NCBI GenBank assembly: GCA_021234155.1
Contig: JAJEKV010000041.1
Span: 11,046,689 to 11,110,688 of the forward strand
Reading direction: 5' to 3'
Length of the DNA stretch: 64,000 nt
DNA from: Isoetes taiwanensis
Lineage: Eukaryota > Streptophyta > Lycopodiopsida > Isoetales > Isoetaceae
Position 1 is the first letter of the stretch; every line of letters begins with the position of its first letter. Below the pieces are notes generated by a model that searched no databases, had not been told where the DNA came from, and was given only the letters and a program-made list of their open reading frames with translations. Below are positions 12,322 through 47,090 of this stretch, one piece after another. The translations under genes were made by a program, and so were the position numbers.

Positions 12322-13313
12322 GAAGCAGAATTTAAGGAACAATTGGGAAATGATAGCAAGATCTATCTATGGTCATGATGATATTAAGAAGGTTGTTTCA
12401 TGCCTTCTTATAAGTATGAAGGAAGATAAGTTCTGTATATGCGCATATATTCTACATGTCTTTAAAGGGTTTGAATCGATCTTCTTTCTTTGCTCTTACG
12501 CAAAAATTGCGGATGGAGTTCATTCTTTATTCGGACCAAGGGCAAGTTAGCTTGTGGGCCTTGGGGTAGAGAGTGCATACAGGAGTGCAGGGTGAATGAG
12601 CGTTAGAATTGCTCGCCTATGGGTGGCGTGGGATTATTTTTAAATGGCGTTTGCTTCATATGCAAAAGTGTCATTTATTTAAACTATAAAGGCCCTCTTA
12701 GAAAACCCCCTAACCATTGATTTATGGGTATGAGCTGGCGCCCTTGGATTGGGCAAGAAGTTTAAAAGGGAAAATCCCCTGCTTCATCATGACCTGATAC
12801 AAGTCGACCGGATTTGGTAAAAAGGTTCGAATCAGGGGATTCGATGCTCTATTCTGAGTGAGACAAAGGCCCACGGCCTTTGCTCAGGCTAATCTTAGCC
12901 TTAGGGACTCTATAATTGGGATGGGATTTAGAGATCCCATCTTTTCTTTGGGGAAGCGACTTGGCGGGGGATTCTGTTGGCAGTCTAAAGCTTGTGCTTA
13001 CACCCTGTATCCTCTTTCAGGGTTGCCTAGAGTCAGTTTCGACCCTTTTGGAATTATTCCACAAACTTTTTGTGTTCTTTTGGAATTATCCATTGCGGCG
13101 TTTTGCTACGGTGTTGAGCAATCTCTTGCATTGCAATATTAGCTCTAGCGATAGAACTTCTTGAGCGGGGCTTCAAGCTAATCTAGGGAGTTAGTTTCTT
13201 GATTGTGGGAGTTGGGGAGTTACGAGGAACTCGGGGGTTCTGCGAGAAACGATTGCGAGGTGACATCAATGTTCTCCTTATTGGCGGTCCTTCTATTGCA
13301 AAGTCTCATGCAC
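12322..13313 (+). pseudogene. MCM5-like exon relics, copy A (split by a ~730 bp insertion)
   Basis: MCM5 is a subunit of the MCM2-7 replicative DNA helicase. Exon 1 (12,322-12,425) follows an AG acceptor after a pyrimidine tract and reads MIARSIYGHDDIKKVVSCLL, matching the conserved segment before the Walker A box of MCM proteins. The donor, intact in the inverted copy, is mutated here from GT to AT, and about 30 bases early in the exon are missing. The start of exon 2 is at about 12,510-12,519; it is then interrupted by ~730 bp and resumes at 13,253 with [17 protein letters not shown], where the Walker A GDPS has become GGPS. The MCM5 assignment over other MCM paralogues rests mainly on the third copy. 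Confidence 0.75.
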
Positions 13314-13499
13314 TACACTGTTCATTTTACCTTTTCAGTTGTGATGTATGTGATTCAATTATTGGAACCTTATATTATGTAGGAATCTAATTGTACATTT
13401 CAACTTCTATGAGATGCAATGAATAGAGCCTAAGAGCACGATCATTATCGTCAGGACCATGGACGCTTTGTTGTGGTTGTCCACTTCATGATTCACTGC

Positions 13500-13790
13500 G
13501 CTTCCCCCCTTGTAAGTTCAACAACATTGACTTGACTGAGGAGGATAATATTTGGTGAGAGTCAGGACTTGGTTGGATTGCTCCACAAGGGTGTAGCTGG
13601 CGCCCATGGCATTGAGCTTATGCAAAATTTGTTGGTCGGATGGAGTTACGGGATAATGTATCTGGAACCAAAGCGGAAGGCGGTGGGTTGGGCTGATCAG
13701 GATGAGGTCAATTGTTTGAGGGTCGTAGGCTAACTTTAGCCCTAACCCATAAAAAGCTATGAATGCGATACAAGTCTCATATCTCTAGGT
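13500..13790 (-). pseudogene. Unidentified open frame opposite the MCM5-like relic (copy A)
   Basis: On the minus strand this stretch reads HYPVTPSDQ followed by LHKLNAMGASYTLVEQSNQV and LTLTKYY. The same protein-like sequence is recognisable in the inverted copy at 46,340-46,618 with conservative changes, for example TLVEQSNQV against TFVEQSDKV. That suggests descent from a real coding sequence, but I do not recognise the family. A frameshift ends the reading after YYPPQSS. It could be a gene neighbouring the MCM5-like gene at the source locus, or part of a transposon. Confidence 0.4.
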
Positions 13791-13938
13791 CTGCATAGTG
13801 CGAGCAATAGCTTAGGAGAAGGGGTCATGGAAAGGACTAGGTTGGCTTGGCGTGGTGGCGGATGCGGTAGAGAGTTTGGGAATGCGGTGGCTATATATAA
13901 GTCACGGTCGCTATGGCACCCAGGGAGCTCAAAGGAAA

Positions 13939-13963
13939 GGAAAAAAAAAAAAAAAAAAAAAAA
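13939..13963. repeat. Poly-A run
   Basis: About 24 A residues. An A-run is at the same place in copy B (about 34,358-34,376), and its complement, a T-run, is at 46,135-46,151 in the inverted copy, so the run is ancestral to all three. It may be a retroposon tail. Confidence 0.8.
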
Positions 13964-14559
13964 ACTTCACGGAGTATATTTTGAAAGCGTATAAAAAATT
14001 CTATGGCGGAATACGCACGACCTTATGTTGTACAATTGGAGTCTTTTGAGTTTTAAATTGAAATCTAAATGCCTAGATCCATAGCGTATAATACTGCGAA
14101 AATAAAAGGTGCAGTGGGGCTTTTGGGGGTTTAGCTTTTAAATAAACTCATGCAATGGCACCAAAATGGCCTTCAAGCAGGCTTCCTACAAAAAGTTATG
14201 GCCTTGAACAAGTGACCTCATACGGCCCATCCTCAGCGGCTTCCCCTTTTTCCTCTTACACTTATCTTCCATGTTTCATATGCTTAAGCTATTTGCAAAT
14301 ATTACACAAGATTTAAGAAGATTTTCTATCTTAGCCCTCACTACGAACTATTCGACCTAACTACTAGAGCATGGATAGTGCTATGATCTGGTCCATCGAG
14401 ATTATGGCTCTGATATCATTGTGATGCTCCCCGAGCCTATACAATGCTCCCATTGTGTAAACATGGAAAATTCCCTTTCCGGCAACTTCGATCACTCGAA
14501 CCTCTTGTAATGGCCAAGTGTTGAGTGAAGGTTATAGGAGGTGCCATAATATACCTTCT

Positions 14560-15130
14560 GTGGCCTATAAACCACCACTATCTAAACCCCCCTCCTCCAC
14601 AACCTGTCCATCCCGGTTATATCTGAAGAACCTATAACGTCCTTCAATCCTACCAATCCTGTCCAACCTCCTATCATATGTTGTACCCATTTTCTTGTGG
14701 TGGGAGAGAGCCATGAAGGCAACATGAAGATTGAACCAATTCCTCATCTTCACTAAGTTTTTTCCACCTAAACAACATCACATCTATGTTTCTAGATTAC
14801 CCACAGAGCAATGCTGACTAAGGTAGCAAAGATTTTATCTCCTTCGGAGGAAGTAATTACCTGGGGCCAACTAAGATTCTGTCCATCCAACCCATCAATG
14901 GGGGCTAACCATTGCCAAAAATCAGTAACATAAGAGTAGAAGAATAGATCGCCACATCCTCCCATTGGACATCTAAAGGGAACAAGAAAAGGGGCATCCA
15001 TTCCTCTGTAATAATCAGCATCTGTGTTAACTCCTCCACCAAAGGCAAACCATCTAAAAATTGTATCCCTTCATAGAGTATTCTAGGAACCACTCCAAGA
15101 GTTTGAGTACTATTGTTTCATTCAACTCCA
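14560..15130 (-). pseudogene. LINE C-terminal zf-RVT-like relic (copy A)
   Basis: The minus strand reads CPMGGCGDLFFYSYVTDFWQ then WLAPIDG, and further on ALWVI, a stop, and KHRC. This arrangement (Cys-x-x-x-Cys, an H/D-LFF stretch, then FWQWL, then ALWVIWK) is that of the reverse-transcriptase zinc-binding domain (zf-RVT) that ends many plant L1-type LINE ORF2 proteins. Stops and frame changes between 14,760 and 15,100 show decay. The RT domain itself is not present next to it, consistent with 5' truncation or later loss. Confidence 0.6.
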
Positions 15131-15293
15131 AAGTAGCAATTTTGGAGGGGATCTTGTTAGTCTAGCAATCGATAGATTTTGGTGACCACATGCTTCTTTT
15201 CCCCACCACCGCGACCATCTGTCCCGGGTCCAACCTCACAATTTCAGAAGCACTTTCCTATCACCCTCCCACGGATTACAAATTATGTTCTTA

Positions 15294-20339: not shown

Positions 20340-23300
20340 CCTGATCCATTACATTGAAAATTGTTTTTCTTGGCAAATTTATCAAGGACCCCTCTATCTA
20401 TGAAATTTATATTGAGAGGGGTAAGTTCATTGTACCTTCTTTTCCTCGACACCCCGATACTATCTACATGTCGAGGAGGTTTTGCATCATGGCATTGCAT
20501 GCTTCATTGCATCTCTTGCTTTCTATGGTTGATAAGCAGTCAACAACAACTATGTTGGCGACTTATTATACCCTAGCAGTCTCAACCTCCTTCGTCGTAT
20601 TATGCACATGCTCTGCACACATGCCCATTAACTACGTTAACAAGCTGGCTACAAGGAAATGGGTTCCCACCATTTTTTTCCTATTGAATTGACTGAACTC
20701 GGGAGGTTCAAAATATGTTCAATCTTAAACTTCCATAGTCAACATGGCGAAAGCTAAGGTTTTTGACCGAACAAATTGCAGGTTTACATGGAAGAGTTTG
20801 GGACTTTGGTTATCCTGAAAGTACTATCATCATACGAGAGTTAATTTTATATGACTACCATTTTTCGTACCGCACCACATGAATGGTTGATGGCAAATAA
20901 ACATCTTGGCAAGGAAATTGGAAGTTGATGAAACAATCTTTAATCGATCCTTAGCAGACGATCAACAATTTTCTCGCCATCTAACTGCTGCTTGAATTGT
21001 CCAGAGTTTGATGATTGTCTGATTTTGCTTGTTAGCAAGTTTAAGAAATGACTTTCCAAACAGGGGGTTAATTTTGTATTTTTGTACGCTTTTCACTAAG
21101 GTTTTGCTATGATTTTGTGGTGTATTTCAATTGATGTACTAATGCGTACATCTAGAGTGCGCATACGCTTTCATTATTTTTTATGGCACTTAGACAATGG
21201 TTTAACCCCTTGAAAAAAAAAAAAATTTGTAATATGGCATGCAAGGCTCGAACTGCTACTTTTTAGGGTTCTCTAGAATGTAGCTTCCGAATTTATAATC
21301 CTACGCTGTGCCCCTCTCGAATCGTCTCATTGCTCTCGACCCGCAGAGAACTTTTTCGCTTTGGTTCCTCCGTTGCCCTCTTTGCCCGCTTGAGGCGTTT
21401 ATTGCAGTGGTTTGGTTGTCTTCGAGCCAAGTATCCGCCTCCATTTTGTCTTCGCTATATCAAAGGAGTTATGAGCAGCTTGTTGCGTGGTTCTTGGTCT
21501 CGGTGCACTAGTCTTCAAGATCTTGTTTCGCCCATTATCAACGGCCATCATAGGTTTTCCTCAGAAGATTATTTTCGCTCGCTATTCCGGTCTCAAGGGC
21601 TTCACCATGTTTTATCCTTTAAGTTTTTTCCTCTAGCAATGGTGGCTCCATAGCAGCTTTCTAATGGCGTAACCATGGAGGGATTGGACGAAAGGTAGAA
21701 GAAAGAATTAGGTTGCATAGGTTCAGATCGATTTTCATGGAGCTGAATTTCTTCACTGGCCCTAAGACGGCATCTCGCACTTATGAAACTGTAAGTCCTT
21801 TTTGTTACATTTCAAGATTTCATCCAAAGTTCTAGGTCCCAAATTTGTTGAAAAAGATGCATCACAAACATTCCGATGGCATTTCAATGTATATTTTCTA
21901 TCCGGGCAAGACTACGAATTTGCATCTATTTAAGGGCTAGTTAAATTGTATGAACAAAGAGTTTTTTGGTTAAAAGCTTCACAAGTGATTTTTCCCGCTT
22001 GTAGTGATGCTCTTATGCAAAGGGCCTCAAGCTTCCAAATCGGGCAAAGGTAAGAAGGTACATGGTTTTTTTCTCACAAAGAATCATTCATCCTCCAAGA
22101 ATGGCCATCTATCTTTTAAAAAACTTAGTAATAGACCGCCAAAACCATGCATTGCATCATGCATTGATCTCATTGGAGTTGAATTTTGCAGAGCTAGTGG
22201 GTAAGCACCATCTAAGTTACCCTTTTTGAAAGCGCCACCGAAGACTCCTATATGAGATTAGACAATGTTCATGCACCAATTTTCCTTAAGTCTTTGAATG
22301 ATCAATTCCATTTGAAGATGCGGATCGTCTACCCGACAAATTGAAGTCCTTTGTATTTCCGTGGCTCGTAACAAATTGAAGCCTCTAATTGATTACATGG
22401 TTGGAGAAGCCATGGATCTGTCCCGGCATCAAATCGAGTGGTTTAGGATGACACATTTATTTATACGATAAAATTGCATTCACAAGAGATTGTTAGCTAT
22501 TAACACTTATGCATATCATATTAGCAAGTCTACCTTGGCTCAATCCATATCATATGCGTGAGCGCATAAGAGACGCTGTGAATAAGAGGAGTCGCGACAA
22601 CAGAAGCTTTGTTCCTTTTTTTGCTTGTTTCCTCGTTTTCTTTCTTGTTCCACTTTCTTCCGCTTCGCTTATTCTTTATTAATATTCGGCTTGCCCCATA
22701 CCTAGTTGGAATTATCTTTGCTCTAAAGTAAAAAATGTAGCCGCTTTTCCTTGCAATGTTGCCATAGCTATTTTGGTGTGTTGTATAACCGACCGCATAT
22801 ATTTGACCAACATTAGGCTTTTTTGCGCCTTTTGCTTATATGTAGGTATTATATTATGCAAAATGGCAAACAAGCACCTCTGATACTTACATGCATGCAA
22901 GTAGACTGTATTACAATCGGTATTTGAGATGGATCTTTATCTCCATAACGAATCCGTTCTCGCATAAATTTAACTCTCCAATTGTAATCGCTTGCACCTC
23001 ATATATAATTACATATATGCAACAAGTAGGAGGTGCTATGGCTATTTGAGATGGATCCTTATGTCCATAACCATTTTCATTCCCATATAAATGAAACTCT
23101 CAATGACGACTACTATATGACATCAATGTCTATATCTATGGGGTCCAATGTATGTGGGTCCAATTTCAATGTGGCTTAATTTTTATATACTAAAAATAAT
23201 GGTTTTGCTTATACATCCTTTTGTTTGTTTTGTAATGGTTATACCGTGAATTTATAATAAAATCTCTTATATCGTATATAATTTGTACTTAAGTTATCAT

Positions 23301-23380
23301 AGAGTTCATTTGTATCTAGAAGATTTACTTGTATGCCGATGTTTTTAGGCCCCGAAGGGGCCAAAATTTTTTTTTATAGC

Positions 23381-23765
23381 AATATAACCATTACATTTTA
23401 CACTTAAAATTAAAATCCCCTTAAACCCCTTTTTGGTTTGGGTGCATATTCACACGGGTGACGAGGGCAATGAGAGCTTCTAAAATTATGTTTTGGTAAT
23501 GAGCAAAATCAACACCATATAGTACATTACCTCAAATCTTATAGTATTTTGCAAATCTTGTTATACAAAGATACCAAATCCTATACATCCATAAATTCCA
23601 TAAATGAGGAACTTTGTGTACTGTGTAGATTAAGGAATAAGGGGTGAATATGCCTATCCAATGCCCTCTCGATGCCCGAGTCACCCCTGTGGTGAATATG
23701 CACCCAAACCAAAGGGGGGTTTAAGGGGATTTTAATTTTAAAGTGTAAAATGTAATGGTTATATT
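23381..23765. mobile_element. Fold-back/MITE-like element (copy B)
   Basis: Same element as at 3,148-3,533, carried along in the segmental duplication. The arms are 23,381-23,455 and about 23,691-23,765. The interior differs from copy A in clustered small changes. Confidence 0.75.
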
Positions 23766-24849
23766 CCAATGGTCACTATAGACACGACTCCTAAATTGAT
23801 TGCTCGAGAAGATTTGAGATCTATATTTGCACCGCAAAACCCACCACGCTAGAGAGGCCGCCAACCCATCCGGTAACATATACACTCATGAATCTGATGC
23901 CAATTTCAGTCCAAGTAGTGCCTCCCCACCACCCATTCCACTTTTCACTACATCAACAATTCAAACTCTTGTTCCAGCTCATTGCAATATATGGTGTGTT
24001 CATGCATTCATGCAAATATAACTAACATCTTGCCAATGAATTCGACTCCATGTTTGGAGCCCTCATTGCAAGAAGTCCAACATTTTAAACCATACCACCG
24101 AGGAATGCATGCAAAACGTAACCAAGCAAGGTTGGTCTATTAGCTTCAAACAGAACCAGTGGTTGTTGTTCATCCAATGGAAGGGCAAATACGCTTGCCT
24201 TGTACGCGTTATCAATGCATGGATATATAAGACAAACATCAGCCATTTGAGTAGTCCCCAAAGTTGTACTTGGACTTATGTAAGAGCAGGGCAGTTGCTA
24301 CCGATGTCCCCATTGTTAATAATAAAGAGTTAATCGCTTTTGGGACAAACCGCACATGAAAGTGGCGCTGAGAGCTTGATCGAGGTTTGTCGTGATTGCC
24401 GGGCCCGTGCTTGCTCAACCACAAATTTTCAATGAAGCAAGCGGCTTGGATTTGCTTTCCTGGATCTCTTTTTACAACTATAATTAGGAGAATTGAAACA
24501 TGTTGCAGTTTTCAAATTGGGTGGGCAAGTAAAAGTATGTTAGAGTGTCTCTTAAAATGTATCATCATTTAGTGACAAAAAAGGGACCTAAAAAGTAGCT
24601 GGCAGTGGTGGATATTGTAGTACTGTGGAACCTATGTAATATCTCAACAAATGTTTTAATAACGAATTAATACATTTTTTTTAACATGTCCTAACTTTTA
24701 TTTTGTATTTTTGAATTGACTTTGATGAAAAGGGAAAAAGGAAAGTACTAGTTTTGGAGTACCTAGTGTAGGTACTTGACAGTTCCAAAAGTAAACACCC
24801 TAATATGCTTTTCCCAAGCATGAATAATAACTTCGTTTCCCTTTCACGA

Positions 24850-25345
24850 CTCAGCTCATCAACGCTCAATTGCTTATATAATTCCTAAGTTCTCATAGAA
24901 CTTATTGAATTTGAACTCGCTTTGATATGTTTGGTTCCTTAGTGCAACAAAATTCCAAGTAATTAAGTATACAATTGACTATCTCGTAATAGCTTTGTTT
25001 GTCCTTGATATACCTTTTTTCATTCAAAGAATTCGCATCTAAGCAATTTCCTGCGGGCGCTTAAGGTTGTGACATTGTATTCACTTCTTTGTAACGCTGT
25101 TACACATGATTGTTTCTTTACTTTTCCAAGCAAAAGATGTTTTTCCTAAAAATCCTAAAGTTGTTTTATTGTATCATATCACTCTCCTAATTTGTATTAG
25201 CATATCCTCTCAATGTTAGATTGCTATTTTGTAAAATGTAAAGCCATATCTTGATTATATTTTTAAGTATCGTTGTAGGCCCTAGGTTAACCTTTGTTGC
25301 AAAGGCATGGAGGTCACGCCATGCATGATATACAACAAAGCATAC
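24850..25345 (-). pseudogene. Ty1-copia RNase H relic, first of two in copy B
   Basis: Counterpart of 4,600-5,110. The minus-strand WKSKKQ-type motif is near 25,120, with small indels relative to copy A. It is not coding. Confidence 0.65.
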
Positions 25346-25362
25346 CTAAATGGCTTAATTTT

Positions 25363-25386
25363 ATAGATAGATAGATAGATAGATAG
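25363..25386. repeat. (GATA)n microsatellite, copy B
   Basis: About five to six GATA units at the position equivalent to 5,119-5,141. Confidence 0.95.
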
Positions 25387-30859: not shown

Positions 30860-31142
30860 GTTTCCAAGTAAAATATGACATAATAGATGACAATAAATTG
30901 CCAAAAAGTAACCTAAAATATGACAAAATAGAGGCAAAAATTTGCAATAAAAAGTGACAAAAAGTGTTATAAAACATGACAAAATAGGTGTTAAAAGATC
31001 GACAAAAGAGTGACAAAAACTGACGCTGTATCGCTACTACCATTTTGACATTTCTATGGTCATCTTTTGTCGGGCTTCTCGAATTTGCAGTAGTCTACAA
31101 AGTGACAAAAACTCGACAATAAACGATGTTCTCTTTGTAGTG
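30860..31142. mobile_element. CACTA-type terminus with subterminal repeats (copy B)
   Basis: Counterpart of 10,490-10,768. The outer end is at about 31,142 and contains one extra T in the TIR, so it reads CACTACAAAGAGAACA. The subterminal TGACAAAA repeats are present, with several CTG-to-TCG type differences from copy A. Confidence 0.6.
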
Positions 31143-32610: not shown

Positions 32611-32688
32611 ACCATCTTAAGAAAATTCAGATTGCAACTATTATATTAGAGGCCTCTCTGTCTTTTCCCCCCTTCTTTTTAATCATAG

Positions 32689-33725: not shown

Positions 33726-33919
33726 CTACAATCGCTCATTTTACCTTTTCAGCCAGATGTATGTGATTCAATTATTGGAACCTTATATTATGTAGGAATC
33801 TAATTGTACATTTCAACTTCTATGAGATGCAATGAATAGAGCCTAAGAGCACGATCATTATCGTCAGGACCATGGACGCTTTGTTGTGGTTGTCCACTTC
33901 ATGATTCACTGCGCTTCCC

Positions 33920-34190
33920 CCCTTGTAAGTTCAACAACATTGACTTGACTGAGGAGGATAATATTTGGTGAGAGTCAGGACTTGGTTGGATTGCTCCACA
34001 AGGGTGTAGCTGGCGCCCATGGCATTGAGCTTATGCAAAATTTGTTCGGTCAGATGGAACACAGGATAATGTATCTGGAACCCAAGCAGGAAGCGGTGGG
34101 TTAGCTGATCAAGGATGAGGTCAATTGTTTGAGGGTCGCCGGCTAACTTTAGCCCTAGCTTCGCAAAAAGCTATGGTACGATACAAGTCT
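33920..34190 (-). pseudogene. Unidentified open frame opposite the MCM5-like relic (copy B)
   Basis: Counterpart of 13,500-13,790 with further small changes in the 34,040-34,140 part. I cannot assign a function. Confidence 0.35.
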
Positions 34191-35000
34191 CATATCTCTA
34201 GGTCTGCATAGTGCGAGCAATAGCTTAGGAGAAGGGGTCATGGAAAGGACTAGGTTGGCGCTTGACTGTGGCGGAGGTACGGTAGAGAGTTTGGGAGTAC
34301 GGTGGCTATGGCAGAAGTACGGTCGCTATGGCAGCCAGGGAGCTCAAGGAAAGGACGAAAAAAAAAAAAAAAAAAAGGGGAAGCTTCGAGTATATTTTGA
34401 AAGCTGATAAAAATTCTATGGAATGAATACGCATCTAATCTTATGTTGTACAATTGGAGTCTTTTGAGTTTTAAATTGAAATCTAAATGCCTAGATCCAT
34501 AGCAGCGCAATACTTTGCGAAAATAAAAAAAGGTGTCCCTCCTGATGGGGCTTTTGGGGGTTTTTAGCTTTTAAATAAACTCTATGCAATGGCACCAAAA
34601 TGGCCTTCAACTGAGCTTCCTACAAAAAGTTATGGCCTTCGGAAGCAAGTGACCTCCTTCTGGCCCATCCTCAACGCAGCTTCCCCTTTTTCCTCTTACA
34701 CTTATCTTCCATGTTTCATATGCTTAAGCTATTTGCAAATATTACACAAGATTTAAGAAGATTTTCTATCTTAGCCCTCACTACTTAACTATTCGACCTA
34801 ACTACTAGAGCATGGATAGTGCTATGATCCTCGTCCATCGAGATTATGGCTCGATATCATTGTGATGCTCCCCGAGCCTATACAATGCTCCCATTGTGTA
34901 AACATGGAAAATTCCCTTCCCAAAGAACCTCGATCACTGAACCTCTTGTAATGGCCAAGTGTTCGAGTGAAGGACATAGAGGTGCCATAATATACCTTCT

Positions 35001-35550
35001 GTGGCCTATAAACCACCACTATCTAAACCCCCCTCCTCCACAACCCGCCCATCCTTTGCTATATCCAAGAACCTATAACGCCCTTCAATCCTACCAATCC
35101 TGTCCAACCTCCTATCATATGTTGTACCCATTTTCTTGTGGTGGGAGAGAGCCATGAAGGCAACATGAAGATTGAACCAATTCCTCATCTTCACTAGAGA
35201 TTTTTTCCACCTAAAGCAACATCACATCTATGTTTCTAGATTACCCACGTATAATGCCGACTAAGGTAGCAAAGATTTTATCTCCTTCAGAGGAAGTAAT
35301 TACCTGGGGCCAACTAAGATTCTGTCCATCCAACCCATCAATGGGGGCTAACCATTGCCAAAAATCAGTAACATAAGAGTAGAAGAATAGATGCCCACAT
35401 CCTCTAGAACCGACATCTAAGGGAACAACCGAAAGGGCATCCATTCCTCTCTCAGAATAACTGCATCCGTGTTAACTCCTCCCCTAAGGCAAACCATCTA
35501 AAGAATTGTATCCCTTCATAGAGTATTCTAGGAACCACTCAAGAGTTTGA
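35001..35550 (-). pseudogene. LINE C-terminal zf-RVT-like relic (copy B)
   Basis: Counterpart of 14,560-15,130, with DLFFYSYVTDFWQWL-type residues conserved at about 35,350-35,420 on the minus strand and the first cysteine region altered. It is not functional. Confidence 0.55.
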
Positions 35551-35939
35551 GTACTATTGTTTCATTCAACTCCAAAGTAGCAATTGCTTGAGGGGATCTT
35601 GTTGGTCTAGCAATCGATAGATTTTGGTGACCACATACTTTTTTCCCCCACCACACGCACCATCTATCCCCAGGTCCAACCTCACAATTTCCCAAGCACT
35701 TTCCTATCACCCTCCCCCGATTACAAATTATGTTCTTAAGTCTAGTCCATGAAACCCATCTCTTAACACTCCATAAATGTTACAATCTCATAATACCCTC
35801 GATTCTTCCACTTGATGAAAATACGTGGATGGGATAGGGCAAAAGGAAGACCATTTTCCTGCCAAACATGCATATTCCAAAAATGCTGAGATTTCCAGCT
35901 TCAAATGTGGGTTCCACAGGAGAGAATACCTATTGGACA

Positions 35940-37392
35940 TGAACCCATGCCGGGAGCTCCTGGGATGGCATGGGCACAGGAAGGGGATACGAAGGTGTCT
36001 TGTGCACCCTTCCCCTATGGGCTCCTATAACAACGGAAGCATATACAAACGTCGCACTAGCAATAACAATACAGTCAACTACCACGAAGGGTAGTACCAT
36101 CCATTCATAGATCGTCCATAATACATCATCCATCAGACGGGCTCCTATCCAAGACTCATGGGAAGAGTAGACCGATGGCTGGGGTCTCAAGATGGAGAAG
36201 ACCGAGTTATGGCAATGACTTGGGCTGGCAATAGACAATGGCTAGGGTTGACCACTCCATCTGCCCTTCCTGTGCATACTATGCAGATGGGCTAAACCGA
36301 GCTATGCCATGACTGTAACATGCCAGATATGCAATCTATTAGTACCACCCAAGGAGACTACTCCACCTTGCATATCTCAATCCGATGAGGTAGGAAGGGT
36401 TGCAGCTCCCCTTCCCGTGAGTGCAAGGGCTCAATAGACGCACTAGAGGATCGTGGCAACACACGCCCTACCCGACCAATCCTCCAAAACAAGAGCCAGG
36501 TCAACACCTGCAACTCTTGAAAGTCATGCGACACCATTGACCCAAGCAGTGTCGGACCCATATCTAACCCCCTCTCGAAGTGGCCGGCTATAAGCCTAGT
36601 TCGCTATGGATCCCCAGGTAGTCGCGCTTAGGGGGGACCTTCCTCTATCTTGCCAATGCCTTTGTTATATGGTGCTCAGGTACTCCATAACCTCCATAGC
36701 ATGGTAGGCTCTATGCACAAAGCTACATATAATAGGAACCAAAGGGTCTAAACTAGAAGCATCCTCTACACAAGTGTACTAGGTCTCTACCCGCCTTCCT
36801 AATACAGGAGGTGCAAACATGATCAACCAACATCATATATTTACATAACATGGTAAATGATAAGAATAACATCTAATCCTAATCACGTGCATCTAACTTA
36901 CAGTTAGGGTTCATTGATTAGGGTTCGAGATCCAAACTAAGAATTCCAGAATGGATTTATTAGAGATACGAGATGCTAACTCATCTGAAATCCTAACTCC
37001 CAGATGTATAAAGTAAACTCAAATCCTACCCCAAGGAACTTCCCCACCCACTGGCATCATTGCTCTCAAGTAGGGGGTAGCTCCCACTCCTTCTCGCCAT
37101 GATATGCTACAACACCAAAACGGGCTCCAAACGTGGGTTCCAACCTAGCGTTAGGGTCTGGCCATTAGTAGGTTGCCATGTCACACCACGTGGCTCCAAT
37201 AGGGTGCGTCTGTGTGGCGGGTCGCCAATAGGATGAAGCCATGTGGAAATGGTTTCATACCTAAGGTTGGCTAACTTATATACAATGACTTAGCCATGCT
37301 CCCTTCTCCACACTAGGTATACTAAGGTAGGATTGTCTGGTGGCATGGCCTAAAATATACGTATTTATATCGTATATTTTAGAGGAACATCA
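35940..37392 (-). repeat. Ty3-gypsy LTR-like block (downstream LTR of a minus-strand element)
   Basis: This block aligns with 42,900-44,077 in long ordered stretches such as GGTGTCTTGTG, GGTAGTACCATCCAT, GATCGTCCATA and GTCTCAAGAT. On the minus strand it begins TGATGTTCC at 37,392, immediately after a polypurine tract at 37,393-37,409. TG start plus adjacent PPT is what a 3' LTR shows. The far end (low coordinates) is not clear and the block may be truncated at about 35,935. Confidence 0.75.
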
Positions 37393-37409
37393 CATTCTCC
37401 CCCCCTTAG
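37393..37409 (-). other. Polypurine tract of the gypsy element
   Basis: The minus strand reads CTAAGGGGGGGAGAATG directly before the TGATGTTCC start of the LTR. In LTR retrotransposons this tract primes plus-strand DNA synthesis. Confidence 0.75.
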
Positions 37410-38379
37410 CATAATGTATAAGGTGACGAACCTGCATCAATCTTACAAGATACAATAACAAGGAATATAGCATTTAGAACCTTATTGAAGCAGTAAACTT
37501 TCAATATTTAATTATAACGATAATTGTAAGGCTATACTTACGTACTTATCCCAAAATTATACGGCCTTTAATAGTTCATTATAAAAGTAAACAACATAAT
37601 GTCATAACAACATGTTTAGGAGTTTATAATTAAGCAAAAAATCTATAAGTTCTATTCTTCTCATGATGTGCTCCTTCCTCAATGTTCCTCCTTTACTGGC
37701 CTGCAATGCGCAGCATATCACGTTAGTTTAGTTAATAAGTTGTAGTTTTAAAAGGACCACCTCCATAATTACCTCCTTGAGCCGAACTACTAGCTCAAGG
37801 TTACCACTACATACTTGCACTGAATCATAGCCCATTCAGATTTAAGCATGGGGAATATCTATTGCCCATGATTAGATGCTTACCTCCTATACGACCTCCG
37901 GTCGTGTATGCACACGCATTGCATCATGGCTAAGGAACGATTGAGACCATACCATCATCGCCCACCATCACCTACTTAACCTACATGACCCCCGGTCATG
38001 CGCACGTGCAGTGCATCATGGCCCTAAAGATTTAAGCATAGGGAACATCTAGGATGATTCCATCATCACCCTTATTCTTAATGAGGTCCGACAAGGGGGA
38101 TGCCCACTTGGCAAAGTCCTTTACAAACTTTTGGTCGTTAAGCCAAGAAAGCTTCTCACTTGGGGGATGTTCTTTGGTGCTGGCCAATCTACTATGGCTT
38201 CTATTTCTGTCGGGTCAGTGGAGGTTCACTTCACTATGACCACATGCCCCAAATATTCCACTCTACCTGTTGCAAAATGGCATTTGGAGAATTTAGTGTA
38301 TGGAGGATGCCATCTTAGATTTCTAGAACTGTTCTTAAGTGTATCACATGCTATTCCTTAGAAATGCTATAGATTAGAA
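37410..38379 (-). other. Internal 3' part of the gypsy element; no domain recognised
   Basis: The stretch lies between the RT relic and the polypurine tract where RNase H and integrase would be expected. I find no chromodomain or integrase zinc-finger motif. Two 76-codon-class plus-strand frames at 38,054-38,361 are antisense to the expected element coding strand and are probably shadows. Confidence 0.5.
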
Positions 38380-38960
38380 TAACATTGAAAAATATGATGA
38401 TTAATTCATCTAAGAAATCCCTGAAGATGTCGCTCATCAAGCGCATGAAATTCGCTGGAGCATTTGATAGGCCAAAGGGCATAATTGTAAACTCATAGTG
38501 CCTATACCGCATTCTAAAACTGGTCTTATGAATGTCTCTTCCTTGATGCGAATTTGGTGATAGCCCAGTCTTAGGTTTTGAAGAAGCTCTTTAGAGCTGA
38601 TCCATTAGATCATCTGCTCTTGGCCATGCATACTTGTTTTTTATTATTTGCTTATTGAGCTGACGATAATCAATGCACATTCTTAGACTTCCATCTTTCT
38701 TCTTTTTACAAAAAGAATGGGAGCTCCAAAGGGCGATACACTTGGCTGAATGAACCAAGCTCTAGCAATTCCTGCAATTGCTTCTTTATCTCTGCAAGCT
38801 CTAGGGTGCTCATCCTATAGGGAGCTTTACTAGCCGGCTTAGTATCCGATGCGAGAGTGATCTCACACTCCACGCCTTTTTAGGGCGTTAATTCATGGAT
38901 TTCATCCAGAAAGAGTTCATGAATTCCTTAATCAGCTTAGCAATTTCCTTAGGTAATTAC
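38380..38960 (-). pseudogene. Ty3-gypsy reverse transcriptase relic without its catalytic aspartates
   Basis: Minus-strand motifs come in the canonical order: [20 protein letters not shown] near 38,810, then after a frameshift [16 protein letters not shown] near 38,680, then [19 protein letters not shown] near 38,490, and finally a segment at 38,385-38,440. The catalytic box, normally a YxDD or FxDD followed by IL, reads FFNVILIYS here, so both aspartates are gone. RNase H and integrase are not evident between it and the polypurine tract 1 kb downstream, so the element has also lost internal sequence. It is a dead member of the Ty3-gypsy superfamily. Confidence 0.85.
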
Positions 38961-39199: not shown

Positions 39200-40300
39200 T
39201 GGCCGATCTCCCAAAATTATGATTGAGTTGAATTTGGGTCATGGCGCTTAGGCTTTCTTGGCTCCTAGGTCGGGGAGGCGGCTTGTTGATGTTCTTAGGG
39301 CATCCGCCTTTTCCAAATCTTGGTATATACAATTGATCCCAAGAATTGTATGTTATCCACCGATCCCAAGAGTTGTATGCTATCCATCGTTTAAGGTATT
39401 CGTAGTAGGCGACCTACTTCTTCTCCTAGGCCCTCTTGGAACACTTTTCGCTTCCTCCGTTCATTCTCCTTCCTCGTCCGTCCGCTATGGTTCCCCGGAT
39501 TACTATGTTTTCTTTTCCCGATCCTCACGCCTCTTTTGTTTGCTTCTCCCTTGCTTGCTTTTCCTCCTCCCAATCTATTGCCTTCTCCTTCTCCCTTGCC
39601 CTTGAGCTTCCACTTCTTTAAGGTCGGGCGCTTCCTCCCAATCTATTGCCTTCTCCTTCTCCTTGCCCCTTGAGCTTCCACTTTTTAAGGCCGTGGCGCT
39701 TCGCCTCAATCCTCCCCGCTTGTTGATCAAGCTTTTTGTCCTTCTTGCGTAAGGTAACCCGATTTCCGCCTCCCTCGATTGCCGCTAAGATCCTCTTGAG
39801 GTGTTGGGCCGCCTCCATTATCGTGGGACTCCCGCCTGATGAATCCGCTGTTGGGTTCTATACCTAGTGTTGGCCATAAAGCCTTCATCGTCCGGCCACT
39901 CGCCATTGCTTCAACGCTCAAGCCGCGAAAGACCTTCCCGGCACCGCTTGATCCTTCCAACAACTTGTCTTTTTGATGGTGGCCTTTTGAGATCCCTTTG
40001 CCTCCATTGATGGTCGACTCGCCTATTCGCATGCAGACCTTTAGGTCGATCTCACTGACCGCTTGTTTGATGCGCCATGACACCTCCGAGATTGCTTTAG
40101 AATTTGCCTTTACAAGGAAAAAAAAAAGAGAGGTTTGGGCTACAATTTGGGAACTTCTAAAGAATAGGGTGCTTCCATAGATTTTAGTGGCCACTTTTCT
40201 TAAGAGTCAATGTATTATAACCCGTGGTTATTAAGTAAAGTACTTTTTCTAATCACTTAAATATTTCTCAAATTTCTATTTCTTTTGATCAATTATTGGT
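39200..40300 (-). other. Presumed protease/gag region of the gypsy element, degraded
   Basis: This lies upstream (minus sense) of the RT. The longest minus-strand frame, 39,727-40,194 (155 codons), is basic and Gly/Ser-rich and has no zinc knuckle or protease motif I can see. The DNA is pyrimidine-rich on the plus strand and includes a tandem duplication. The position suggests gag or a linker, but the sequence itself does not prove it. Confidence 0.35.
39563..39698. repeat. 68-bp tandem duplication in a pyrimidine-rich tract
   Basis: The phrase CTCCCAATCTATTGCCTTCT with its CTTGAGCTTCCACTT continuation occurs twice, starting near 39,563 and 39,631. The copies differ by one-base indels in C and T runs and by a few substitutions. 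Confidence 0.85.
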
Positions 40301-40399
40301 CATTTCACGCCATTTTCTTTCAAGCTTCCTCTTGAGCGATTTCTTGTTCAATTTTCACTTGTAAAATGCGGTTCATGAACAACTTGAGCTCAAATTACT

Positions 40400-42657
40400 A
40401 GAAGGTCCTTAAAGCCAAGATGGCCTACGTGGAACATCACTCCCGAAAGCAAGGGAGGCAATACTTGCAACAGCTATAATGACCCTCGTGGTGCACATGC
40501 AAAGATTACCCCCTCGCAAGAAGGCCCGGTCTTGGAAATCACAGATTCGGGCGTGGAACAAGGCTTACAAAATGCCTTGCCAATGGAAAAGCCCCGGACC
40601 TGATGGCATGCGCGTAATTGCTTAAGTGGGCAGGGGGGCCCATAATACCGGCTCAAGGTCGACCGCCTTGTTCAACAAGGCATTACAGAAGGCTTCCGGC
40701 GCAGGACCAATAGCGAGTTGTTCCCATCTATAAGGCAGGACCTGCCTGACGCCACCCAATTACCGAACAATCATGGTCAGTTCGGTGTTTGCAAAATTGC
40801 TTACCGGGATTCTCGAAAGCGCTGACGGGCCGGGCAGAGGCAAGCAGAGAATACGCCCCTCACCCAGCAGATTCGAACTCTACACTCAACCATTGACCAC
40901 ATCTTCACATTGCGAAGCTCGGTTGAAGACAAATAGGAACCGCCGCAGATCTATATTGTTGCTTCGCGGATTTTGCAAAGGCATTTGACACTGCGCCTCG
41001 AAAAACTATGGGCAAGATTGGCGCATACCGGGTTCCGTAGATTTGCGTAATGCAAGTTGTACAAGCTTTATGAAAGATGCTCTGTCGGGTTGTACCCGAC
41101 AAGCCAACCATTTGATAGTAGTATCGGGTTCGCCAGGGATGCCCTCTCCCCAACATTGTTTGGGCTTTACATTGATCAATTGGAGAGCTGGCTTGTCGAT
41201 AATGGGGGCGACCGGGCTCACCTTCTCTACCAGATCATCATCAAGCGCTTAATATATGCCGATGATGTGGACCTCCTAGCTTACACACCAGCAGCAGACA
41301 TGCAACGACATCTCGATGCCTCGACACATTTTGTCAAGCGATCGATATGCGCTCAACTTGGCCAAGACTAAGGTGGTTTTCATATCATCTTCACGGCGGT
41401 AGAGGATCCCTCCTTCCGCTACCAAGGGCGTAATGTGGAAGTAGCATCCACATACAAATATTTGGGAGTGGAGTTTCCGCTCTACTATGCACCGGACACA
41501 TCCATACGGGCCACGAAGTTACTGGCGGCCGGAAAGCACTATATGCAATGCAAAACAATAGTCATAGAGCGGAGTTGTATGATTGGACCCATCACACACT
41601 GCTCAAAGTCTTAGTGGAGCCCCGCCCTTTTATACCGGGGTTGAAGTATGGGGCCCAAGAGTATCCCTCGCTACTTGGAATGACTTGGAGCAAAAGCGTA
41701 AAGCCTTCTTGGTACGAAAGCACTAGGGGTGAAGTCCACAGTCCCATATCAAATTCTACATCAGGAAACAGATTCTTGCCTCTTCGTGAGGGCTGCCCTT
41801 GATCGCCACATTGTCTATTTTTCTAAGGTGGTCAACATGGACGATGCTCGCCTCCCAAAAACTAGCTTATATCATGGCAATGGGGCCACAACGCCTCAAA
41901 GCCCAACTGGAGGGAAAAGAGAGCTCAATGGATGGCTAGATGGAATGTGCAGAGCACGTGCATACATGTGCAAACAGAGGCGATCGCCATAGCTTGAGGT
42001 AATATCTTGACGCTTGCTTCATCAGCAAGCTTTGGGATGCCACCCTTGAACAGGTCAAGACAAAGACACTACCAAAAAAGACCACATAAATCCCACATTG
42101 AACGAGGCCCACAATGCTACCAAGCGCACCCACTTGCCCATGAAAAGACGCACTCATTGCCTCCATTCGCATTGGGGCACATCATCTTCGGATTGAGACA
42201 AAGCAGCAGATGGATTGGTGAGCCACGCCAGACAGTGCTCTGCAACGCCGCCAAATGGGAGTCATTGAGGATGAATCTCATACCCTTCAAAGTTGCCCAA
42301 AGATATGATCAAATCCGGACGCCGCTTATGCCGAGTTGGTCGCCCCCGCCAGCCGCTACATGTGACATTGAGCACGCATCCGCATCGGATGCTAGGATCA
42401 TACCTTCAGAGGTCACGACATGCGAGATCAGCTATGTCCCTGCACGCGCTGACATGTACATACACATTTATTTCATGATGATGTATACTTGTATAGCTTT
42501 GACAAAGATTCTTATTATCGACACGGTTTTTCCTCTAAACCCTTCTCTGGGGTTTTTAACCCTGACAAGAATAAGTTTGTCGCGACTCCTTCTCGGGTCC
42601 CATAGGCCGATTGGTCTCAGTGGACGATAAAAAAACTATTCTATTCTATTCTATTTG
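40400..42657 (+). pseudogene. LINE (non-LTR retrotransposon) reverse transcriptase relic inside the gypsy element
   Basis: Plus-strand RT motifs in order: KSPGPDGMR at about 40,580-40,610, VVPIYKAG-type at about 40,715-40,740 followed by IMVSSVFAKLLTGILES at about 40,770-40,820, LSPTLFGLYIDQLESWL at about 41,130-41,190, and the catalytic IYADDVDLLAY at 41,249-41,281, with the YADD box intact. At least four frame changes and stops separate these blocks. The element ends with a short 3' region and a (TTCTA)n-like tail at 42,636-42,657. It lies in the opposite orientation to the gypsy element, so it is probably a later insertion. The 5' boundary is uncertain. Confidence 0.85.
42636..42657 (+). 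repeat. (TTCTA)n tail at the LINE 3' end
   Basis: About four units of a pentanucleotide (CTATT repeated) follow the LINE 3' region. Short microsatellite tails instead of poly-A are known for several LINE clades and mark target-primed reverse transcription. Confidence 0.7.
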
Positions 42658-42828
42658 AATATATTAATTCTATCCCCTAGTCTATAACTTAATCTAAATT
42701 ATAGTCCTGCTAATGGGAAAAAAATTCTCCCCCTTTTTGCAGTTCAAGACTGGAATTCCCATTATTCCAATCCTTAACTAGGCTACCTACTAAGGTCATA
42801 GCCAATGCTTGACCTTGGTCAACCAAGA

Positions 42829-42845
42829 TCATGCTCTGGTACTGT
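42829..42845 (-). other. Primer-binding site of the gypsy element (tRNA-Met type)
   Basis: On the minus strand the sequence next to the LTR end (CCGTCACA) reads AGTACCAGAGCATG, close to the 3' complement of initiator tRNA-Met (canonical TGGTATCAGAGC), with substitutions. The pairing of LTR end and PBS fixes the upstream edge of the element's internal region at 42,845. Confidence 0.65.
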
Positions 42846-44077
42846 TGTGACGGTCCCTACCAAATGTATGATGCCCCATCTTATATCTCGCAGGAAACCC
42901 CCCATCCAGTGACATCCGCCACATGGGCCCTTTGTCTATCCTGCTTCTGCGATGGCTAGGGCGGGGGAAGGGGACACAAAGGTGTCTTGTGGGCCCTTCC
43001 CCTATGGGCACCTATAATAGCGGAAGCATACACAAATGTCAACAAAGATACAATCAGCTACCACAAAAGGTAGTACCATCCATCCATAGATCGTCCATAT
43101 ATATCATACATCAGACAAGCTCCTACCCAGGCTCAGACTCATGGGAAGAGTAGGTTGACAGTTGGGGTCTCAAGATAGAACATATCGAGTTATGGCAATG
43201 GCTTGGGCTAGCAATAGCCCGAGGGTTTCACCTACTATAAAGGTGATACGCCACGTGCGTTAATAGGGTCAGCAAAAAACCCTCCGTATACGCCTTGTCC
43301 AACCTTCTAAACGCCCCTTCTCGTATACATATTACACTTGGATTCCCCCGAAAACCCTAGCCAAACCCCTATCCGTGATTTATACATACGGTTTAGGTAA
43401 AACCCACAACTTTCACTCACATGGTATATACGCCTTTAAACTATGTGACATCAATGGCTAGGGTGACCTCAATCCGCCCCTCCTGTGTATACTATGCAGA
43501 TGGGCTAAATCAAGCTATGTTGTGACTATAACATGCCGGATACACAATCTCTTGGTACCATCCAAGGAGACTACTTCGGATTGCATCTCCCCTGTTCGAT
43601 GAGGTAGGGTTGCATCTCCCTTTCCCAGAGTGCAGTGGCTCAATAGGCGATTCGAGGATTATGGCGATACACATCCTTTTCAGTTGAATTCTTCAAAGAA
43701 CCAGACCAATACCTGCAACTCTTGAGAATCAGGGTGACACCATTGACCCAAGAAGTGTTGGACCTATACCCGGCTCTTTCGAAGTGGCCGGCTATATGCC
43801 TAGTCCACTATGGATCCCTAGTAGCTGCTCAGCGGGGACCTCTCTCTATCTTGCCACTACCTCTGTTATGTGGTTCTCAGTCACTCCATGAACCTCCATA
43901 GCCTGGTGGGCTCTATGCAGAGGCCGCATATAATAGAAATTAAAAGGTCTAAACTAGAAGCATCGTCTACACAAGGCTACTAGGTCTCTACTCGCCTTTC
44001 CAATCTAGGAGGTGCAAACATGATCAACGAAAATCGTTTATCCACATAACATGATAAATGATAAGAATAACATCTAA
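42846..44077 (-). repeat. Ty3-gypsy upstream LTR, interrupted by a TRIM
   Basis: This is the homologue of the block at 35,940-37,392. On the plus strand it starts TGTGACGG at 42,846 next to the primer site, and it stops matching at 44,077, where the TRIM begins. The last ~300 bases of the LTR, including the TGATGTTCC end seen at 37,392, are missing beyond the insertion. An extra segment at about 43,220-43,450 is absent from the other LTR, including a block of CCTAAACC-like plant-rich sequence. Confidence 0.75.
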
Positions 44078-44437
44078 TGTAACGGATCCATGGAGACCGC
44101 TCAAGTGGATCTTAGTGTCGTGTTCTCGAGACACCAGCATAAATGGGTAGAAGCGACTACTCATAAACATCTATACAGTTTTGCATCATTGGCTAAGGGC
44201 ATGTCGGTTAGGAATGTTACATTTAGTATCAGAGCAGGGCTCAAGTCTCCATGGGGGAAAGTATGACCCCGAATATTGTTGGATGGTAGGTCATGACTTG
44301 ATCTTGGACACCATGGGATGGTGTGGTCTATGGTTTGTGATGCTGAGATTGTAACGGACCCATGGAGACCGCTCGAGTGGATCTTGGTGTCATGTTCCCG
44401 AGACACGACATAAATGGATAGAAGCGACTACTCATCT
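44078..44437 (+). mobile_element. TRIM (terminal-repeat retrotransposon in miniature)
   Basis: A 144-bp 5' LTR (44,078-44,221) starts TGTAACGG and ends TGTTACA, giving a 6-bp terminal inversion TGTAAC/GTTACA. It is followed within two bases by a primer site (TAGTATCAGAGCAGGG, about 44,224-44,240) that resembles the tRNA-Met site TGGTATCAGAGC. The 3' LTR starts at 44,350 and matches the first ~87 bases of the 5' LTR before diverging at about 44,437, so it is truncated. The internal region is only about 128 bp and codes for nothing, as TRIMs do. It sits inside a gypsy LTR. Confidence 0.85.
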
Positions 44438-44439
44438 AC

Positions 44440-44503
44440 TTACTTAAAGTATTTTTGGGTCGATGCGCTCACTTAAAATGTTTTTGGGTCGATGCGCTTA
44501 TGC
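44440..44503. repeat. Tandem repeat of ~31 bp
   Basis: Two units of CTTAAA followed by GTATTTTTGGGTCGATGCGCT (second unit ATGTTTTT) directly abut the truncated TRIM LTR. Confidence 0.8.
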
Positions 44504-45774
44504 CGGTGTAATGCCGGCGCTCACTCTTTTTTCGACAAAAAGCGTGAGTTTTGGAATCCAAAAATATTTTTGGCTATTTCTTCTATTCCTTCACAGATTT
44601 GCGAGGTGGGTGAGCAACCCCAGAGCCCACCATTACAGGTATATTCTCCTCCTTCAATCCTCATTATTTCTAGTAGTAAATGAGTGGAGTTTAAATCTTA
44701 TCTTTACACTTACCCTAAATCGCAAGAGCGTCGCTGAAGCAAAGGAGTCGGTGAAGCCTGGAACAGGTAAATATTTTTGCTGAGAGTTCTTTCTTATTCT
44801 TTGCCTTTTGGGTTTAAGTATGCAGCAGAATATGATATGGCTAAAATAGCTGGATTTGACATGGCCAATGCAGTCGGATTGGGCATGGCTTTGAGCTGCT
44901 TTGTTTTTCTAGAAAAAATGGTAAGGATGCTGGCAAAATCGCATACGACTGCTTACGAGCTTTGATTTTTGAGTCTTAGGCTGTGTTTTGATGGTGGATC
45001 TACAAGGCATTTCAATTTGCTGTACCTAGCAATCCCGGGATGGGCCACATATTTGATAATTGTTTCCCTGTCCTGATAGGCCATATGATAGCCGTTTCCC
45101 TAAAATAAGCAGTTAATCTGTTGGAGCAGATCGATCTGCTTTGACCTTTTTGTAGCTTTTGGTTAATTTCACCTATCTCTGGCATTTCGACACGGGATTT
45201 CAATTAGCGGAGGAGTCATGAAGCAAAGCAAAAAGGAGGTAAAATATTTTCCTTCTTTCTGGGTTTAGGATGCATTTTCTGTTTTGGTCATCTGGGATCC
45301 AATTGGTTCATAGTTCGAAACCTGCTTGGTGGAGTAAGTGAGATGACTAAAAAGCCAGTTATTTAAATTGATGTAGAAGACTTATCTTATATTCTAAATG
45401 CTAATCGGTTACTGTTACTCCACAAGTAGCTATTTTTCGTATACAGCAAAATCGACATGCTTTGCTGGGAAGAGCAACGAACCCAATGACCTTAAAGAAG
45501 TGCTTGATTTGGTTACACTCTGACCCTGTATTTTTAACTTAATGCTTATGCAAATTACTATGTTTTGTTTCATTCAACGGGCTAGAAGTTTTCAACTAAC
45601 GAGACACATGCATATCAGGTTTAGGGCTAAACGGTTCACTGGTGAAGGGCGTCTCTATAACATTTGCTTCATGCTAAGCTTCATCCTTTCTTCCATGTAG
45701 CCTACTGTTCTGTAGCTGCAATGTTGCACATTGTAGCATTGCGGCTTCATAGACCCAAATGATCTCCTGTATTC
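44504..45774. other. No recognisable gene
   Basis: Low gene-content DNA between the TRIM and the inverted copy. The plus-strand frame 44,463-44,783 (106 codons) ends next to GTAAATATTTTTGC, which could be a splice donor context, but the predicted peptide has no domain I recognise. Treat it as unproven. Confidence 0.4.
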
Positions 45775-46339
45775 CCAAATAGCTTAAGCATGTGAAATAT
45801 GGGTTAGTTAGGAAGATAAGTGTAAGAGGAAAAAGGGGGAGCCATGTTGAGGTTGGGCCAGAAGGAGGTCACTTGCTTTCGAAGGCCATAACTTTCTGTA
45901 AGATGCTCAATTGAAGGCCATTTTGCTTGAATAGCTAAAATCTCCAAAAAGCCCCATCAGGAGGCGCACCCATTGGGAGATTTTTTTATTTTCCCAAAGT
46001 GTTGCGCTGCTATGGATCTAGGCATTTATATTTCAATTTAAACCTCAAAAAACTCCAACAGTACAACATAAGGTCGCGCATATTCCGCCATAAAATTTTT
46101 TATACGCTTTCAAAATTTACTCAAAAATCTTCGCTTTTTTTTTTTTTTTTTCCTCCCCCTCCTTTTCTTGAGCTCCCTGGCTGCCATAATGACCGTAATT
46201 CTGCCATTTCCACCGTACTTCCAAACTCTCTACCATACCTCCGCCATAGTCAGGCGCCGACCTAGTCCTTTCCATAGTACTCACCCTTCTTCTAGGCTAT
46301 GGCTCGCATTATGCAGACCTAGAGATATGAGACTTGTAT

Positions 46340-46618
46340 CGTATCACAGCTTTTTGCGAAGCTAGGGCTAAAGTTAGTCGATGACCCTCAAACGATTGAC
46401 CTCATCCTTGATCAGATAGCCCATCGCTTCCTGCTTGGATTCCAGATACATTATTCCTATTCCATCTGACCTAACAAATTTTGCATAAGTTCAATGCCAT
46501 GGGCGCCAGCTACACCTTTGTGGAGCAATCCGACAAAGTCCTAACTCTCACCAAGTACTATCTCCCTCAGTCAAAGACTGTCAATGTTGTTGAACTCACA
46601 AGGAGGAAAGCGCAATGA
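46340..46618 (+). pseudogene. Unidentified open frame opposite the MCM5-like exons, best copy
   Basis: Two plus-strand open stretches are joined by one frameshift. The first, about 46,340-46,455, includes QLFAKLGLKLVDDPQTIDLI and ILDQIAHRFLLGFQI. The second, about 46,487-46,618, includes NAMGASYTFVEQSDKVLTLT and ends with a TGA at 46,616. Together they make ~95 codons. Copies A and B preserve much of the second part. I do not recognise the protein. It is divergent in orientation to the MCM5-like exons, so it could be a neighbouring gene from the same source locus or transposon coding sequence. Confidence 0.4.
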
Positions 46619-46794
46619 ACATGGACTGGACAACAACAACAGGCACCCATGGTCGTGACGATAATGATCGTGTTCTTAGGCTCTATTCATTGCATCTCAT
46701 AGAAGTTGAAATGTACAATTAGATTTCTACATAATATAGATTCCAATAACTGAATCACATACATCACAACTGAAAAGGTAAAAGGAACAGTGTA

Positions 46795-47090
46795 GTGCAT
46801 GAGACTTTGCAGCAGAAGGATCGCCAACAAGGAGAACATTGATGTCACCTCGCAAGCAAACTCCATCTGGTAATTTTTGCAGAAAAACAAGAAAGAAGAT
46901 CGTTTCGAAACCTTTTAAAAACGTGTAGACTATATATAGTTACATAGACAGGAACTTACCTTCCTTAATACTAAAAAGAAGGCATGAAACAACCTTCTTA
47001 ATATCATCATGACCATAGACAGATGGTGCTATCATTTTCCAATTGTTTGATATGTATCTGGATTAAGGCAAACTCCTTAAATTCTGCTTC
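46795..47090 (-). pseudogene. MCM5-like two-exon relic, best-preserved copy
   Basis: MCM5 belongs to the replicative helicase MCM2-7. Exon 1 (47,090 to 46,960) contains EAEFKEFA, then NPDTYQTIGK, then MIAPSVYGHDDIKKVVSCLL and F. These come from three frames that together follow the MCM5-type order (FKEFA, PDxY, IAPSIxGHxxIKKAxACLLF). A consensus donor GTAAGTTCC follows. After a ~83-base intron whose acceptor AG is altered, exon 2 reads [20 protein letters not shown] and then SAAKSHAL, with an intact Walker A GDPSxAKS. LPDG before LRGDINVLL favours MCM5 over MCM2, 3, 4, 6 and 7. Only these exons are present, so it is a fragment and not functional. Confidence 0.8.

Follow-up and report, generated by a model that had tools for sequence, protein, structure and literature searches.

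Descendants of one probable break-repair patch carry MCM5 gene fragments in a decaying long terminal repeat retrotransposon of Isoetes taiwanensis

We analyzed a 64,000-nucleotide stretch of the Isoetes taiwanensis genome (C1047:11046689-11110688 in an assembly of 1.658 Gb in 1110 contigs; hereafter the window), in which fragments of the replicative helicase gene MCM5 lie beside long terminal repeat (LTR) sequence. The fragments are probably best explained as a break-repair patch in a decaying LTR retrotransposon that was later duplicated locally and passively. A double-strand break in the element would have been filled with short copied pieces that together form a mosaic, among them about 0.4 kb of unspliced MCM5 DNA from another contig, and the patched remnant would then have been multiplied as passenger DNA. 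Six copies are considered: copies 1-3 in the window, copies 4 (L016) and 5 (L017) downstream on C1047, and copy 6 (L018) on contig C56. The proposed order of events is capture, inverted duplication, block duplication, and tandem duplication, of which the early order is the more conjectural. The inverted duplication would separate copies 1 and 2 from copy 3. Copies 4 and 5 would come from blocks duplicated about 73-76 kb downstream, possibly in a single step. Copies 1 and 2 would come from a tandem duplication of 20.3 kb, of which C56 has another unit. Positions without a contig name are those of the window. The first-look candidate counts given below are rough numbers of places, of which a subset was scored where stated.

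Results

A first-pass annotation had described an MCM5-like two-exon piece in three repeat copies, the third inverted, and the reading frames agreed with these motif positions. In copy 1 (plus strand), SIYGHDDIKK starts at 12362 and RGDINVLL at 13256. In copy 2 (plus strand), DDIKK starts at 32745, with the residues upstream in a different frame, and RGDINVLL starts at 33669. In copy 3 (minus strand), SVYGHDDIKK occupies 47023-46994, LPDG begins at 46873, and RGDINVLL begins at 46852. All three copies are present, but copies 1 and 2 belong to one 20.3-kb tandem duplication and are not independent insertions. Similarly, the exon-intron-exon layout is plain in copy 3, which has an 83-nt intron, whereas the spacing of about 0.9 kb in copies 1 and 2 is mostly repeat within the second exon.

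The source gene was then located on a separate contig. When the assembly was searched with a 310-bp query taken from copy 3, all 11 candidates were scored and gave 11 match rows, and these rows resolve into the six copies and a parent gene on C1056, which the query matches at 87% identity (E 4.3e-100). Copy 3, copy 5 (C1047:11166458) and the parent (C1056:16677957) gave one row each, and copies 1, 2, 4 (C1047:11154974 and 11155948) and 6 (C56:282426 and 283410) gave two rows each. Seven of the ten parent frames given matched Pfam MCM_OB, MCM or MCM5_C, and the last exon matched MCM5_C (E 6.5e-17). When the joined parent piece was compared with PDB, the nine best rows were all MCM5 (143-154 bits), and the next row was MCM / Cell division control protein 21 (112 bits). 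This ranking ruled out another MCM paralogue as the source. Exon ii of copy 3 was 85% identical to C1056, compared with 65% for the next-best-scoring locus outside the cluster, and its frame matched PF00493 (E 5.9e-07). By these similarities, the captured piece is derived from MCM5, the family that the annotation had favored. The window could be ruled out as the true MCM5 locus, as the gene lies in a 10-kb stretch at C1056:16673000-16682999 (L015), whose similarity to the window and L016-L018 is limited to the captured piece (matches of at least 60 bp counted up to E 1e-8). The parent gene is likely intact end to end. A genome search with Pfam MCM listed nothing on C1047 despite the fragments there and is uninformative on fragments. 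As a separate observation, on the minus strand of L015 near 4980, the parent intron after ...AKSQ seems to begin with GC and not GT, as a GC-AG intron.

In copy 3, the MCM5-derived piece occupies 46704-47110 on the minus strand. It comprises the tail of one intron, exon i (47090-46960), the 83-nt intron with a GTAAGT donor (46959-46877), exon ii (46876-46799), and the first 100 nt or so of the next intron. Aligned to L015:4876-5294, the interval 47110-46704 was 84.5% identical over 420 aligned columns, and the parent homology ended inside both outer introns. The Kimura two-parameter (K80) distance between the parent and copy 3 was 0.115 for exon i with the intron tail, 0.345 for the middle intron, 0.054 for exon ii, and 0.152 for the outer intron. 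For the whole piece it was 0.151, a value that takes in conserved exon sites, so the time from capture to inversion cannot be dated from it. Since the intron is retained, the captured template is, on this reading, unspliced sequence. The annotation's claim of an intron-bearing genomic piece rather than a processed cDNA holds accordingly, with one whole intron and parts of both outer introns kept.

Next, we analyzed the junctions of the captured piece. From the LTR to the leader on the minus strand, the order is an 81-bp piece, a 71-bp piece, 407 bp of MCM5, a piece of about 56 bp, and one of about 43 bp. The 81-bp piece (47182-47262) is common to LTR-related repeats: 34 of the 40 scored rows (131 candidates), all 34 outside the cluster, match within query positions 72-153. 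The 71-bp piece (47111-47181) was found only in the six copies among the same 40 scored of 131 candidates. The ~56-bp piece (46649-46704) also occurs at C56:35575 and C56:41496 with 92-93% identity, and the ~43-bp piece (46606-46648) was found in the six copies only, with 8 of 8 candidates scored. The patch is a mosaic of pieces of different origins, namely two orphan pieces, one LTR-related piece, one C56-like piece, and the MCM5 piece. With the query spanning the 81- and 71-bp pieces, the rows of the six copies run from query position 1 to 148-155. With the query from the other side, the six copies were again matched, over 16-104 in copy 6 and 6-104 in copy 4, and the alignments of the six copies continue from the patch into the leader. 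Because all six copies have the same flanking patch, the junctions point to a single capture ancestral to all of them. A clean 640-bp deletion relative to C334 was considered and dropped, as the 81-bp piece is oriented otherwise in L040 and L041.

The annotation had also noticed LTR-like sequence beside the MCM5 piece, and alignment identified these flanks as an LTR and a leader. Six loci outside the window (L031-L036) and copy 2 were aligned, indicating that the flanks are the LTR and the leader of one retrotransposon type. In L031, L032, L033 and copy 2, the LTR end GTCACA is followed by a degenerate primer site resembling TGGTATCAGAGC and then by the leader; in L034 and L035, a purine-rich stretch precedes the other LTR end. 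Beside copy 3, the truncated LTR lies at 47263-48328 on the plus strand (3647 first-look candidates, 40 scored), and the leader region, 3' of the primer-binding site, lies at 45770-46605 on the plus strand (164 first-look candidates, 40 scored; aligned to L031-L033). Since the element sense beside copy 3 is plus, the MCM5 piece is antisense to its host element. Other family members run on beyond 47263 and 48328, the two ends of the copy 3 LTR, and the idea that this was a whole LTR with these ends was dropped. The truncated LTR beside copy 1 lies at 11385-12150 and that beside copy 2 at 31751-32517, both on the minus strand. In the alignment, copy 2 has the same inner stop (32517) as copy 3, but a different outer stop (31751), and a further stop at 34988 in its other LTR part. 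Copies 2 and 3, the two checked individually, both lack two complete LTRs. In copy 1, a primer-binding-site-like sequence, TGATATCAGAGC (14407-14418, minus strand), sits at the expected boundary of leader and LTR with one mismatch to TGGTATCAGAGC, which we take to be the primer-binding-site motif. The pattern at up to 2 mismatches was found 9 times in the window against 5.0 expected, so what supports this site is its position. These alignments mark the host as an LTR retrotransposon in a degraded state. Near copies 2 and 3, additional LTR-related repeats that are about 80% alike were observed at 35956-38071 and 42859-44078.

The arrangement of the copies was then examined. Five of the six copies found in the assembly lie within 108 kb of C1047, and the sixth lies near the end of the small contig C56. 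No copies at unlinked sites were found in the search of this assembly, which may miss stretches, and the C56 copy is inside the same duplicated block. Window self-comparison delimited the two units of the tandem duplication at 53-15293 and 20343-35738, both on the plus strand, and showed copy 3 (48011-45770) to be an inverted relative of copies 1 and 2. Copy 4 matches window 28341-38580 in pieces at an offset of 75.6 kb, copy 5 matches 39580-40410 and 42654-51243 at an offset of 73.0 kb, and the match of copy 6 to the copy 2 block extends as far as the end region of C56. The agreement in order and spacing suggests that one event produced copies 4 and 5 from copies 2 and 3. In the LTR flank, K80 distances were 0.017 between copies 1 and 2, 0.073 between copies 1 and 4, and 0.131-0.178 between copies 1, 2 and 4 and copies 3 and 5. 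The annotation had proposed that the gene piece was amplified with the repeat. However, the flanking LTR has about 3647 first-look candidates, whereas the MCM5 piece has six copies, all with one flanking patch, and the assembly search with the copy 3 query ruled out genome-wide amplification of the piece. The copy number would be best explained by local duplication rather than by transposition.

In its present state, no copy could encode MCM5 or be spliced as MCM5. Exon i of copies 3 and 5 has three small deletions, of 1, 1 and 2 nt, and both acceptor AGs are gone. Copies 1, 2, 4 and 6 have a 28-bp deletion in exon i, have lost the donor GT and the second acceptor, and have a repeat of about 0.75 kb in exon ii. 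In copy 1, the MCM5-derived piece extends over 12322-13405 (plus strand), with exon i at 12322-12425 minus the 28 bp, and exon ii at 12504-12520 and 13253-13309. Its tandem sister, copy 2, extends over 32689-33818 (plus strand). Judged from sequence, all six copies are dead as MCM5, each an ordinary dead gene fragment.

The repeat insert sits directly after GATGGAGTT in exon ii of copies 1, 2, 4 and 6. It lies at 12521-13252 in copy 1 and, as the same repeat, at 32899-33665 in copy 2, both on the plus strand. It is missing from copy 3, and that of copy 1 was aligned with copies 2, 4 and 6 and with a C1054 copy. The repeat has 211 first-look candidates in the assembly, 40 of which were scored. 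In copy 4, it begins with TGTTACGG, ends with GTGACA and is flanked by attgc and gttgc; the stretch homologous to the C1054 copy extends from TGTTACGG to GGCTGTGA. We infer that the insert is a solo LTR. The long gap in copies 1 and 2, which the annotation had read as an intron, is mostly this inserted repeat.

Discussion

Several points weigh against a break-repair patch followed by passive duplication. The patch is large, about 0.66 kb (46606-47262), compared with fillers of 1-131 bp stated for maize genes and 1-123 bp for rice excisions in the available portions of those reports (PMC2686159, PMC4423477). The uninterrupted pre-capture site was not found, and several later deletions could also build a mosaic. 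Visible microhomology amounts to at most about 2 nt, at the junction of MCM5 and the 56-bp piece, after long divergence, and the orientation of the 81-bp piece relative to the LTR differs between L042 and L040/L041. The LTR borders were drawn from few copies of an old family. Furthermore, the LTR-flank distances of the supposed jointly duplicated pairs are unequal (copies 2-4, 0.055; copies 3-5, 0.005), a difference that could come from consensus errors or gene conversion.

An unlikely alternative is that some copies are assembly artefacts produced by false or unresolved duplication. The alignment of copies 1 and 2 contains 622 differing columns among 6938; 91% of these differences lie within 5 nt of another one, compared with 61% at random, and identity runs of at least 100 nt make up 44% of the alignment, compared with 0.08% at random. 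Similar odd blocks (AATCGCT; GCCA before GATG) occur in copies 2, 5 and 6, across two lineages. Between copies 6 and 1, 983 of 7004 columns differ, and between copies 6 and 2, 705 of 6963, yet unbroken stretches of 600 and 532 nt are identical between copy 6 and these two copies. Systematic consensus error is the likeliest cause of the clustered differences, with gene conversion as the alternative, and the distances involving affected copies may be too high. However, real events (the 28-bp deletion, the repeat insert and the orientation) separate copies 1, 2, 4 and 6 from copies 3 and 5, and K80 in the LTR flank between copies 1, 2 and 4 and copies 3 and 5 is 0.13-0.18 among the five copies compared.

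It is unlikely that a retrotransposon captured MCM5 through RNA template switching or readthrough and spread it by transposition as an LTR transduplicate. The MCM5 piece does sit between the leader and the LTR of an LTR element, other members of the host family have a histone-H3-like frame beyond the same leader, and LTR capture is common, at least 189 captures having been reported for 425 intact maize elements (PMC2774510). Nevertheless, the MCM5 copies found are restricted to one duplicated block, the intron is kept, and the MCM5 piece and the element have opposite senses. The start of the LTR, where the polypurine tract should adjoin, is missing beside copies 2 and 3, and additional short pieces stand at both junctions. 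A partial duplication of the MCM5 gene, beside which LTR elements inserted later, is improbable. The inclusion of parts of both outer introns would suit such a duplication, but the 10-kb parent stretch is matched only over the captured piece, and short unrelated pieces directly adjoin MCM5, followed by two parts of one LTR element type.

The histone-H3-like frames deserve separate description. Outside the window, L032 (4473-4850, plus strand) and L033 (2192-2554, minus strand) carry such a frame about 1.4 kb past the primer site in element sense, and open H3-fold frames were also observed in L044 and L048; the first 33 residues of the L032 frame have no H3 match. The L032 frame matched Pfam Histone (E 8e-29), and its best PDB row was histone H3.3 (E 2.6e-37). 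With a query of leader plus H3 from L032, 8 rows in the assembly span from the leader into H3, its own place included (40 of 787 candidates scored; split C930 rows uncounted). By tblastn, eight of nine loci matched the H3 frame, L031 being the exception, and L043, L045, L046 and L047 have stops or breaks in the fold. Pairwise dN/dS was 0.13-0.26 among four loci chosen for 78 open codons, a value biased by this choice and by constrained H3 ancestry. No complete H3 element is demonstrated, because in L032 only about 500 bp of LTR was matched and the 12 kb following its H3 yielded no second LTR, and C1029 and C1068 cease to be homologous about 240 bp past H3. Titles and abstract openings among the papers listed point to no histone H3 in LTR elements. 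That the host lineage habitually takes up chromatin and replication genes, with a constrained H3-fold frame and the MCM5 patch as a second acquisition at nearly the same place, is highly improbable. If true, a retroelement with its own H3-like protein that repeatedly acquired S-phase genes would be new, and if the H3-bearing relatives prove intact and expressed, they would matter more than the MCM5 fragment.

Least probable of all is the annotation's suggestion that the fragments are a present, putative source of small RNAs against MCM5: copies 2 and 3 are opposed about 13 kb apart with LTR-flank arms of 400 bp that are 90% complementary, so a hairpin transcript is conceivable, and small-RNA analysis suggested negative regulation by some LTR-captured rice and sorghum genes (PMC3726574), but the matched pieces are only 77-86% identical to the parent.

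Elsewhere in the window, pentatricopeptide repeat (PPR) reading frames at 58045-59016 and 57307-57897, both on the minus strand, were observed as a gene or recent pseudogene. A frame at 56602-56967 (minus strand) resembles them in appearance.

If a patched break followed by passive duplication is indeed the explanation, one dead patch spread by segmental duplication can mimic the amplification of a gene-carrying transposon. The locus would also illustrate that a large, unspliced piece of a gene can sit in an apparent plant break-repair patch, with six descendants sharing one junction set. No report of MCM5 fragments in plant transposons was found in our literature search.

Pack-MULEs and Helitrons capture genes at the DNA level together with introns, and the MCM5 piece resembles such captures in both respects. 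Unlike in Pack-MULEs and Helitrons, the flanks here are the leader and the LTR of an LTR element. Both kinds of gene capture are named in a survey of maize elements (PMC2774510). As in the LTR-captured genes described for maize (PMC2774510) and for rice and sorghum (PMC3726574), a host gene fragment lies between parts of an LTR element, here in pseudogenic form. However, unlike what the available text of these reports describes, no intact carrier element or unlinked site was found here, and the six copies fit segmental duplication. Complex mosaic filler at a plant break has been described for maize p2/p1 (PMC2686159), and filler segments have been described in rice (PMC4423477) and barley (PMC3706897). 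Like this plant filler DNA, as far as the accessible parts of the three papers portray it, the patch consists of short unrelated pieces joined at an apparent break, seemingly copied from elsewhere, without a transposition signature. In contrast to those fillers, whose stated sizes do not exceed 131 bp, the patch here includes one exon-intron-exon piece of MCM5 of about 0.4 kb from another contig.

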